A stretch of 58,980 nt of DNA from Deltaproteobacteria bacterium RIFOXYD12_FULL_56_24 (GTDB lineage Bacteria; Desulfobacterota; Desulfobulbia; Desulfobulbales; Desulfurivibrionaceae), in NCBI GenBank assembly GCA_001799285.1, contig MGTD01000048.1:1-58980 (forward strand), written 5' to 3'. Below the pieces are notes generated by a model. That model was not told the origin of the DNA. It worked only from the letters and a program-made list of their open reading frames with translations, and ran no database searches. Shown here piece by piece: positions 3,841 to 19,080 of this stretch (positions within the stretch are counted from its first letter, which is position 1; each line of letters opens with the position of its first letter). Position numbers and translations under genes: made by a program.

Positions 3841-5274
3841 ATGGAATTTGAAACCGTCATTGGCCTTGAGGTCCATGCCCAGCTCAAGACCAGGAGCAAG
3901 ATTTTCTGCGGCTGCTCCACCGCCTTCGGCAACCCCCCCAACACCAACACCTGTCCGGTCTGCCTCGGCATGCCCGGCGTTTTGCCGGTGCTGAACAAAA
4001 AGGTGGTGGAGTACGCGATGAAGATGGCCCTGGCCACCAACTGCGTCATCGGCCCGCTGAACCAGTTCGCCCGCAAGAATTATTTCTACCCCGACCTGCC
4101 CAAGGGTTATCAGATCTCCCAGTTTGACCTGCCCATCGCCGAGCACGGCTGGGTGGAGGTCGAGGCGGGAGGCCGGACGAGAAGGATCGGCCTCACCCGC
4201 ATCCACATGGAGGAGGACGCCGGCAAGCTCATCCACGACGAGCGTGAGCCGGTGAGTTATGTGGACCTCAACCGCACCGGCACCCCGCTCATCGAGATCG
4301 TCAGCGAACCGGATATCCGTTCGCCGGAGGAGGCCGCGGCTTATCTCAAGAAACTGCACGCCATCCTCCGCTATCTCGACATCTGCGACGGCAATATGCA
4401 GGAGGGCAGCTTTCGCTGCGACGCCAATATCTCGCTCAGGCCCGTGGGTCAGCAGGAGCTGGGTACCCGTACCGAACTCAAAAATATGAATTCCTTCAAG
4501 AACGTGCAGAAGGCGCTGGAGTTCGAGGTGCGCCGCCAGCGCGACCTGCTGCTGGACGGCGGCAAGATCATCCAGGAAACCCTGCTCTGGGATGCGGACC
4601 GCAACGTGACCAACGCCATGCGCTCCAAGGAGGAGGCCCACGATTACCGCTACTTCCCGGACCCGGATCTGGTGCCGGTGGTGATCGACGCTGCCTGGAT
4701 CGAGGCGATGCGCGCCACCCTGCCCGAGCTGCCCGATGCCCGGAAAAATCGCTTCACGGAACAACTGGGATTGTCGGACAACGACGCTTCGGTGCTTACC
4801 TCCTCCAAGGAGCTGGCCGATTATTTCGAAGCGGCCTTGGCTGGGTATCCAAACGGCAAAAAGCTCGGCAACTGGCTGATGACCGAGCTGATGCGGCTGA
4901 TGAAGGGCGAGGAGGCCATGGACATCAGCCAGTGCCCGGTTTCCCCAAAGAATCTGGCCAAGCTGTTGACCATGATCGACACCGGCACCATCAGCGGCAA
5001 GATCGCCAAGACCGTGTTCGAGGAGATGATGCTCTCCGGCAAGGATCCGGAGGCGGTGGTCCAGGAGAAGGGCTTGGTGCAGATGAGCGACCAGGGCGAG
5101 ATCATGGCCATGGTTAAAGAGATCATCGCGGCCAATCCTGAGCAGGCGCAGCAGTTTCGCGAGGGCAAGACCAAGGTCATGGGCTTTTTCGTGGGCCAGC
5201 TCATGAAACAGACCGGGGGCAAGGCCAATCCGGGGCTGGCCAACGAGTTGTTCAGCAAGGCGCTGGCGGAGTAG
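3841..5274 (+). CDS. gatB: Aspartyl/glutamyl-tRNA(Asn/Gln) amidotransferase subunit B
   Basis: 477 aa, the family's usual length. GatB is the kinase-like, tRNA-binding subunit of GatCAB, which converts Glu-tRNA(Gln) or Asp-tRNA(Asn) to the amidated form in the cytoplasm. Visible landmarks are the N-terminal [19 protein letters not shown], the cysteine pair in [11 protein letters not shown], the family signature [14 protein letters not shown], and the C-terminal YqeY-like tail ([16 protein letters not shown]). I place the start at ATG 3841, behind GGAGAGAAG, rather than at the upstream in-frame codon at 3802, which would add 13 unconserved residues. gatA and gatC are not adjacent. The stop codon abuts an inverted-repeat cassette. 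Confidence 0.96.
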
Positions 5275-5275
5275 G

Positions 5276-5721
5276 TTTTTTGCCACGAAACCCACGAAAG
5301 GACACGAAAGTTTTGGGAGAAGAGATTGTAGAGAAGGATCTTGTCTATGCGATCAACGCTTGTGTGTTCGAGGTGTATCGTCAGCTTGGCCATGGGTTCC
5401 TGGAGAAAGTGTACGAGAATGCGCTGGTAAGGGAGTTTCAGGCCAGGGAGATTGCCGTGGAAGCGCAGGTCCCCTTTTCCGTGAGATATAAGGGGGCGAT
5501 TGTCGGGGAGTACTTTGCGGATCTGGTGGTTGCCGGCAGAGTAATCGTCGAGGTGAAAGCAATAGAGCGGCTTCATCCAGCCCATGAGGCGCAGATTCTG
5601 AACTATCTTAAGGCGACCGGCAAAAAGGTCGGCCTCCTGGTGAATTTCAACCATCCCAAGGCGACTATTAAACGGTTTGTCTTATAAATTTCGTGTCTTT
5701 CGTGGGTTTCGTGGCAAAAAA
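5276..5721 (+). repeat. Inverted repeats framing the GxxExxY gene
   Basis: The left arm (5276-5309) and right arm (5689-5721) are inverted copies built from CACGAA-type units and differ by a single base insertion. The left arm begins 2 nt after the gatB stop; the right arm ends 2 nt before the radC start codon. Both arms therefore fit exactly between the neighbouring coding regions and enclose only the GxxExxY gene. I see no target duplication. Confidence 0.75.
5280..5687 (+). CDS. GxxExxY protein (PD-(D/E)XK nuclease-like fold)
   Basis: 135 aa. The signature GHGFLEKVYENAL contains the G-x2-E-x2-Y motif that names the family. Further on are YFADLVVAGRVIVEVKA (a D...EVK pattern of the PD-(D/E)XK nuclease fold) and QILNYLKATGKKVGLLVNF. 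No activity is established for this family as far as I know. The first possible start, TTG 5280, lies inside the left inverted repeat, so the first ten codons would come from the repeat. TTG 5313 just after the arm is an equally good start and fits the family length better. The gene and its framing repeats look like one unit inserted between gatB and radC. Confidence 0.85.
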   Translation: MPRNPRKDTKVLGEEIVEKDLVYAINACVFEVYRQLGHGFLEKVYENALVREFQAREIAVEAQVPFSVRYKGAIVGEYFADLVVAGRVIVEVKAIERLHPAHEAQILNYLKATGKKVGLLVNFNHPKATIKRFVL

Positions 5722-5723
5722 TC

Positions 5724-6458
5724 ATGAATCAATCCGACTGGCAGAAAAAAGGCGATGGCCACCGGCAGCGGTTGCGGGACAGGTTTTTGGCCCAAGGGCT
5801 CGACGGCTTTACCGACGCCGAGGTGCTGGAGCTGCTTATCTCCATGGGCACCCCCCGCAAGGACTGCAAGGAGCCTGCCCGCCTCCTGCTCAAGCAGTTC
5901 AACAATCTGGCCCGCGCCTTGGATGCAAGCCAGTCCGAACTTGAACTGGTTGACGGCATCGGACCAAAGAATGCCTTTGCCCTGCGCTTTATCCAAGGGG
6001 TGGCCCGGCGCTACCTGCAACAAAGGCTGGTGGCCAAGGAATATCTTCGCTCCTCCCGCGAGGTGGGGGAGTATCTGGTTCACAGCATGCGTGGCCTCAA
6101 ACGCGAGGTGCTGACCGCAGTTTTTCTCGACTCATCTCTGGCTATCATCGCTACCCAACAGGTAGCGGAAGGCACTCTGGCCAGCAACACCGTGCATCCC
6201 CGGGAGTTGATCAAGCTGGCCCTGGAGCACCATGCCGCCTCGGTGGTCATCGCCCATAATCATCCCTCCGGCAGCCTGACCCCTTCGGCGGAGGATACCC
6301 GGCTCACCCGCCATCTCTTCATCGCCCTGGGTTTTGCCGGGATTCAGCTGCTGGATCATCTCATCGTCGGAGAGGGTGAGCAGCCTTTCAGTTTTGCCGA
6401 TCACGGCCTGCTGGAGGATATCCGGAGCCGGAGCCGGGCGCTGATTGCCGGCGAATGA
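5724..6458 (+). CDS. radC: RadC family JAB/MPN-domain protein
   Basis: 244 aa. An N-terminal helix-hairpin-helix-like region (residues about 10-90, with LVDGIGPKNAFALRF) is followed by the RadC JAB domain with the metal-binding signature HNHPSGSLTPSAED. Despite its name RadC has no proven DNA-repair role; the fold is that of a JAMM metalloprotease or deaminase-like enzyme. The ATG at 5724 lies 3 nt from the end of the upstream inverted repeat. The stop overlaps the hemW start by 4 nt (ATGA), indicating translational coupling. Confidence 0.93.
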   Translation: MNQSDWQKKGDGHRQRLRDRFLAQGLDGFTDAEVLELLISMGTPRKDCKEPARLLLKQFNNLARALDASQSELELVDGIGPKNAFALRFIQGVARRYLQQRLVAKEYLRSSREVGEYLVHSMRGLKREVLTAVFLDSSLAIIATQQVAEGTLASNTVHPRELIKLALEHHAASVVIAHNHPSGSLTPSAEDTRLTRHLFIALGFAGIQLLDHLIVGEGEQPFSFADHGLLEDIRSRSRALIAGE

Positions 6459-16860: not shown

Positions 16861-16947
16861 GGCGCGCCTTTTGTGAGAGGTTTTGCAAGAGACCGCTAGT
16901 TTTCTCGGCCAAAATACCTGAAAAGGCGAAAGATGCAAAGAGGAATG

Positions 16948-17060
16948 AAGAATTCTGAGTGCTGAGTACGGAGTGATGAGTGCGAAAAGGGACAGGGACA
17001 GTCCCCGTACGGGGGGGCCGTCCCTGTTCCTTTTGAAATTTCGTGACGTTCGTGGCAAAG
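16948..17060. repeat. Mixed repeat patch with hairpin between acs and the symporter gene
   Basis: Three elements are packed here: a degenerate GTGCTGAGTAC-like tract (16948-16985); a long imperfect hairpin (about 16988-17031) with arms GGGACAGGGAC and GTCCCTGTTCC, followed on the minus strand by TTTT, which could terminate acs; and a short degenerate copy of the CACGAA-type repeat (17037-17060) resembling the arms around the GxxExxY gene. The remaining gap holds no gene. Confidence 0.5.
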
Positions 17061-17088
17061 ATTGTTTTTTGCTTTCTCCTTCTGACTT

Positions 17089-19080
<1,992 letters not shown>

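Follow-up and report, generated by a model that had tools for sequence, protein, structure and literature searches.

A GxxExxY gene enclosed by inverted arrays

The window analysed here is a 58,980 nt stretch of contig MGTD01000048.1 from Deltaproteobacteria bacterium RIFOXYD12_FULL_56_24 (Desulfurivibrionaceae), in which a single gene of the GxxExxY family lies between two inverted arrays of a short repeat unit, CACGAA, the gene and arrays together forming a small cassette between gatB and radC. This pairing of a GxxExxY gene with inverted arrays recurs across many bacterial and archaeal phyla, and the cassette is probably the gene-carrying form in a family of tiny mobile elements, moved by the unit-recognising PD-(D/E)XK nuclease that it would encode. 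The cassette, its neighbours and a further copy of the repeat lie as follows.

5276..5309, plus strand: left array, a T-run and three CACGAA units pointing to the gene (from the sequence)
5313..5687, plus strand: GxxExxY gene, 124 aa, likely TTG start at 5313, with a longer frame from TTG 5280 (TIGR04256, PF13366)
5688..5721, minus strand: right array, three CACGAA units on the minus strand and an A-run (from the sequence)
3841..5274, plus strand: upstream neighbour, presumably gatB (open frame)
5724..6458, plus strand: downstream neighbour, presumably radC (open frame)
17040..17055, minus strand: solitary two-unit array remnant without a gene (pattern match)

The arms are 100% complementary over 25 nt (5276-5300 and 5697-5721), and their likeness runs on inwards past a one-base slip to a total of 33-34 nt per arm (left arm inner sequence, AAAGGACACGAAAG; right arm, read on the minus strand, AAAGACACGAAAT), with three CACGAA units in each. 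The original prediction, made from the letters of the window and their open frames, had described perfect inverted repeats of 33-34 bp built of these units; the arrays are real, but the repeats are perfect over the 25 nt only. It correctly placed exactly one gene between the repeats, with the cassette filling the gap from the stop of gatB (5274) to the start of radC (5724), two names that we take from that prediction. A possible start codon does lie in the repeat, as it had proposed, since TTG 5280 begins the longest frame and is inside the array, though an in-frame TTG at 5313, just inwards of the array, is the likelier start because it is conserved in four related genomes (G002, G004, G009 and G011). 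A standard intrinsic terminator was considered for the hairpin and rejected, because on both strands a T-run comes before it and an A-run after it.

The GxxExxY protein resembles PD-(D/E)XK nucleases

The protein matches TIGR04256 with 149.9 bits (cut-off 35) and PF13366 with 145.7 bits (cut-off 22), and no other family matched at E 0.001. Residues D81, E91, K93 and Q105 (numbered from TTG 5280) are invariant in 50 sequences and Y109 is nearly so; the pattern QxxxY marks RecB/Cas4-like nucleases. The structure model (pLDDT 91.6, pTM 0.82) has its nearest fold in SSO0001, which we take to be a Cas4 (Z 10.9 over 98 residues, root-mean-square deviation 3.2; next fold 8.8), with alkaline and lambda-type exonucleases among the other near folds. 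On this model the protein is predicted to belong to the PD-(D/E)XK nuclease superfamily, its likeness to Cas4 being one of fold only. A solved relative was also sought by sequence, and the one match (E 0.79) was taken as chance. One paper mentions incidentally a gene beside a CRISPR-type reverse transcriptase, seemingly cas4, that was recognised just as GxxExxY (PMC8934634). A plasmid or phage origin was rejected, as relatives of one query protein were found at E 1e-5 in 8 of 72,556 plasmid records and 0 of 50,697 phage records.

Inverted arrays accompany GxxExxY genes across phyla

GxxExxY matches were present in 109 of 297 sampled genomes of the window's phylum, and of the 119 loci collected there 89 remained once 30 with short flanks or partial matches had been set aside. 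At 78 of these 89 the gene had an inverted repeat scoring at least 26 no more than 350 nt away, against 7 of 89 when the windows at the same loci were shifted outwards, and raising the score to at least 30 left 70 loci against a single shifted window. Shuffling the right flank left a repeat at 2 of 89 loci, whilst right flanks swapped in from other loci gave one in 9.8% of 265 pairs. A second set covered many phyla of bacteria and archaea: the 80 best of 551 loci were taken and 14 of them were dropped at contig ends; 55 of the 66 testable loci carried an inverted repeat, against 4 of 52 shifted windows. The surveyed loci are the best-scoring or first-listed rather than a random draw and are not all independent (L009 and L010 are nearly identical, L012 is the window itself, L150 and L213 hold the same protein). 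Eleven loci of each set had no repeat at score 26, and repeats at this score were lacking beside 22 of 153 intact proteins. The expectation in the original prediction that GxxExxY genes elsewhere would have matching flanking repeats is thereby borne out, the association being general in the phylum and beyond it.

The repeats have a consistent design. Arms read towards the gene in 195 of 218 cases, and over 131 loci the median outer span of an array pair is 518 nt. Among named units, the nearest-unit distance was 8, 9 or 10 bp in 243 of 250 cases (spacings above 14 nt being uncounted), with a spacing typical of each type: mostly 8 for CAAAG, 9 for CGGAT and 10 for CAGAT. Unit labels come from a simple rule of our own, under which 23 of the 131 repeat-bearing loci received no type, some of these being plain palindromes and not arrays.

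Unit type co-varies with the protein. The tree comprises 109 proteins carrying 14 unit types (L199 labelled by hand), and the type switches 32 times along it, where 500 shuffles averaged 78.6 switches and never fell below 71. Pairing each protein with its closest counterpart outside its own host phylum gives the same unit type in 43% of cases, against a permutation mean of 9.9% and maximum of 21% (for this test, genomes without a name and three loci of unassigned phylum were counted with the window's phylum). For example, the ACAGGAT types of Verrucomicrobiota, Spirochaetota, Pseudomonadota and the window's phylum fall into one weakly supported group of 12 rows, which includes two AGGGAT rows and one CGGAT row.

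The gatB-radC site in relatives

gatB was matched in 36 of 38 genomes, 30 loci were fetched and 27 junctions were read (the first 200 nt only in G001, G007, G016 and G030). The cassette is open in the window's genome (G000) and in G002, G004, G009, G011 and G023, is frame-shifted in G021, and survives in G018 as a relic in which one arm and the end of the gene remain; a stub of the left arm persists in G001, G014, G015 and G016, and 15 junctions have no clear array, G007 and G012 among them perhaps retaining a few bases. The comparison of junctions that the original prediction had proposed therefore yields both relatives lacking the cassette and relics of it. Such open, broken, stub and empty junctions fit one old insertion that was retained or lost several times, the alternative being repeated insertion. 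Nine comparisons among five open copies gave dN/dS of 0.07-0.13 at dS 0.47-0.92, G002 and G004 showing zero synonymous change and pairs with G023 being saturated. The copy at this site is under purifying selection and has been lost in many relatives.

This selection at a fixed site would suit a domesticated host system, in which the arrays are nuclease sites for control of the gene itself or for hairpin trimming and movement is long past, as would the geneless elements that several members of the genus share, by eye, at matching positions. We think such a system unlikely, given the loss of the cassette at this junction in many relatives and, as described below, the similar dispersed copies in G009 and G030, the empty sites and the target duplications.

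A tract of ~900 nt that holds the cassette differs at 4 places between G002 and G004, inside more diverged flanks in which most 150-nt windows differ at 5-16 places or more, and is suggestive of homing-like conversion or ordinary recombination. Under homing-like spread the nuclease would cut cassette-free sites and repair would copy the cassette in, with co-conversion of the flanks; the cassette being open in five relatives and frame-shifted in a sixth also agrees with this. However, the tract is a single case from draft genomes listed at 4% and 6% contamination, one flanking window also has just 2 differences, recombination or assembly error would look alike, and dispersal to new sites is left unexplained, so that we hold homing-like spread to be very improbable.

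Geneless arrays are dispersed and have moved

Within the window, CCACGAANNNCACGAA has 5 matches with at most one mismatch, where shuffles expect 0.09 and gave 1 at most. A degenerate single copy without a gene had been noticed near 17037-17060; it is real and lies at 17040-17055 on the minus strand as two units, and no array partner was found for it within 16900-17150. The genome as a whole has one GxxExxY gene, whilst the triple-unit pattern (up to 2 mismatches) has seven matches against one for the reversed pattern. Six of the seven lie elsewhere with no gene found beside them, and four of these six (L002, L003, L006 and L008) have a clear second, inverted arm at most ~130 nt away; two further paired sites occur at C7:38423/38606 and C52:9802/9913. 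Single-strand DNA folding of four such elements, of which G000 supplied two and G030 and G299 one each, gave strong hairpins, with z of -7.4 to -13.7.

Geneless arrays follow the type of the resident gene. Across 58 genomes, triple CAGAG arrays gave 505 matches against 15 for the reversed control and triple ACGAA arrays 195 against 6 (control sums being our own); these raw counts include overlapping matches in long arrays as well as gene-adjacent arrays. G203 had 140 array matches and G030 had 81. Of the genomes that have a CAGAG gene, 12 of 14 contained at least three CAGAG arrays, compared with 10 of the 44 that lack it; for the CGAA gene and at least three ACGAA arrays the figures were 9 of 15 and 5 of 43, whilst CAGAG arrays were scarcer where the gene was of CGAA type (at least three in 2 of 15 versus 20 of 43; Fisher p 0.03). 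Subtracting the genes' own arrays (two per gene) and taking one value per host family gave p of 0.013 and 0.020, and cross tests between the two types gave no excess.

In G009 one geneless family occupies ten places at 82-100% identity, plus shorter matches. The site of one copy, where the flanks are 140 nt apart in G009, was compared across 15 relatives in the genus: the flanks are 24-31 nt apart in 13 of them, 45 nt in G013 and 177 nt in G012, which has another insert; this is one insertion against 13 clean empty sites, and no target duplication was evident at the G009 copy. Target duplication does occur in a second family, the geneless one of G030. Twenty-five of its places were aligned, 24 went into the test, and 14 of the 24 copies carry direct repeats of 6-10 nt at their ends, where shuffled pairs would give 9% (mean length 5.25 versus 2.02), and the duplicated target reads by eye roughly AAANTTG. 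The arrays of this family are subterminal, with further end sequence outside them. A derivation by internal deletion was seen once, on contig C39 of G009 (L316), where a 91-nt copy is a deleted form of the adjacent 430-nt gene-bearing copy.

Some tandem arrangements around gene-bearing copies are given here as side observations. The one in L316 is flanked on both sides by geneless copies; at gatB-radC in G009 (L080) a deleted copy precedes the intact one and the end of gatB is duplicated; and on contig C3 of G182 (L171) three gene copies are listed within 3 kb.

A candidate mobile element with its own nuclease

The element would consist of two inverted arrays near its ends, each of about three units of 8-10 bp, and of a sole gene for a compact Cas4/RecB-type nuclease. 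This nuclease would recognise the units, most likely in a single-strand hairpin, and cut at them, and the cutting would move or copy both the gene-bearing copies and the more numerous geneless hairpin copies; in the window's bacterial family the gatB-radC copy looks vertically kept, much as a RAYT gene would be beside a REPIN population. The earlier suggestion of a possible role for the gene in mobilising or maintaining its repeats is supported by the survey, by the co-variation of unit and protein and by the matching geneless arrays; that the nuclease itself recognises the units, cuts them and catalyses movement is our inference.

Several observations weigh against this. Some loci at score 26 or above have inverted repeats that are not arrays (e.g. 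L055, L056 and L167), and in G003, G010 and G015 arrays were found but no gene. A recent jump by a gene-bearing copy was not observed, and no convincing target duplication was found at such copies (at least 8 nt in 8 of 131, where 100 shuffles averaged 2.75 and never exceeded 7, with the longest cases, L023 and L133, apparently tandem copies). Physical linkage of gene and arrays could, by co-inheritance alone, make unit type track the protein tree, and the co-variation is therefore no proof of recognition. Lastly, the outer ends of the G030 geneless family are unlike those of most gene-bearing copies read. This last point also favours our main rival explanation, in which the GxxExxY gene is a passenger that benefits the cell or the element, and an unrelated transposase, for example a DDE enzyme, moves the arrays or outer ends in trans. 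DDE enzymes make target duplications of the kind seen in the G030 family; against a passenger stand the tracking of unit type with protein across phyla and the narrow span between arrays, and we regard it as fairly unlikely, if less so than domestication. Movement by the element's own nuclease is the account that we prefer.

The best reading, by analogy with the nearest known arrangement, is a REPIN/RAYT-like partnership that would be built on a Cas4/RecB-like PD-(D/E)XK nuclease. Passages in PMC3116915 and PMC8049555 describe REPINs (hairpins of repetitive extragenic palindromic, REP, sequences) as short inverted repeats dispersed between genes and served by a single-copy, vertically inherited REP-associated tyrosine transposase (RAYT) gene, which is reported in the latter to be absent from plasmids. 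The geneless copies here are likewise dispersed inverted doublets that fold as hairpins and are commoner in genomes with the partner gene (their intergenic placing being judged from few loci), and relatives of this GxxExxY protein are similarly rare on plasmids. They differ in being arrays of about three 8-10 bp units and in showing target duplications in one family, and the cassette's enzyme falls outside the RAYTs, which are tyrosine (HUH) transposases; the geneless copies may thus work like REPINs, with no homology claimed. With insertion sequences and miniature inverted-repeat transposable elements the cassette shares terminal inverted sequences, the one geneless deletion derivative and, in a single family, the target duplications, but its arrays are tandem units, subterminal in G030 and with a short span, and its one gene is GxxExxY and no known transposase, which on this count places it outside the insertion sequences. 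The ends of Tn7 (TnsA/TnsB) also combine a PD-(D/E)XK nuclease with several short binding sites near each end, although Tn7 is far larger than this small cassette and needs a DDE transposase as well.

A search of the literature by family names, unit strings and nuclease-type insertion sequences found no link of GxxExxY to inverted arrays. The recurrence of the pairing across phyla and the spread of geneless copies suggest a little-noticed mobile DNA family. GxxExxY genes are common and of unassigned function, and the link to repeats gives them a testable role; it also explains many hairpin repeats that are dispersed in genomes (CACAGAG, CACGAA and others). Natural pairs of protein and site that differ in few bases mean that recognition could be read from sequence, and should the nuclease move DNA unaided, it would represent a new type of transposition enzyme.

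A second protein between inverted arrays

PF05635 is the four-helix protein of 23S rRNA intervening sequences. The 30 best loci of this family in the window's phylum were fetched (L267-L296), and at 26 of the 28 testable ones the gene lies between inverted arrays, against 1 of 28 shifted windows; the arrays repeat every 7 bp (matching at 0.60 for lag 7 and 0.58 for lag 14). Two unrelated small proteins, GxxExxY and PF05635, thus share one architecture. Intervening sequences of 23S rRNA with an S23/IVP gene (PF05635), that of Coxiella being 428 nt long with a 28-bp stem (PMC4990558), are like the cassette in having one small gene between inverted repeats at a similar length, and unlike it in their unrelated protein, the 7-bp units of PF05635 loci and their classical seat in rRNA rather than between gatB and radC. 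The short tandemly repeated repetitive (STRR) heptamers and TAACTGA repeats (PMC4679880) were also considered and are nearer the PF05635 case because they are heptamers. A wider proposal, which we judge possible but somewhat more doubtful than not, is that GxxExxY forms a distinct class of transposition enzyme, in which a lone PD-(D/E)XK nuclease moves elements flanked by inverted 8-10 bp unit arrays in bacteria and archaea and supports large geneless hairpin populations, and that PF05635 with its 7-bp arrays is a second, independent occupant of such 'inverted-array cassettes'.

Other repeats and features

A second dispersed repeat (about GGTTGGGGCGTTGAGTAGTTAC) lies, by eye, beside or inside the geneless elements L317, L320, L324, L325 and L326 and in the interior of L008. 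A short hairpin repeat (about TGTCAATCATCGGCAGTAGTGC) is seen, again by eye, nested in the arms of CACGAA elements (right arm of L003, left arm of L105, and L303) in G000, G009 and G015, as if REP-like elements had inserted into these palindromes. In the window itself, an open frame at 88-486 resembles by eye the beginning of a reverse transcriptase of the group II intron type.
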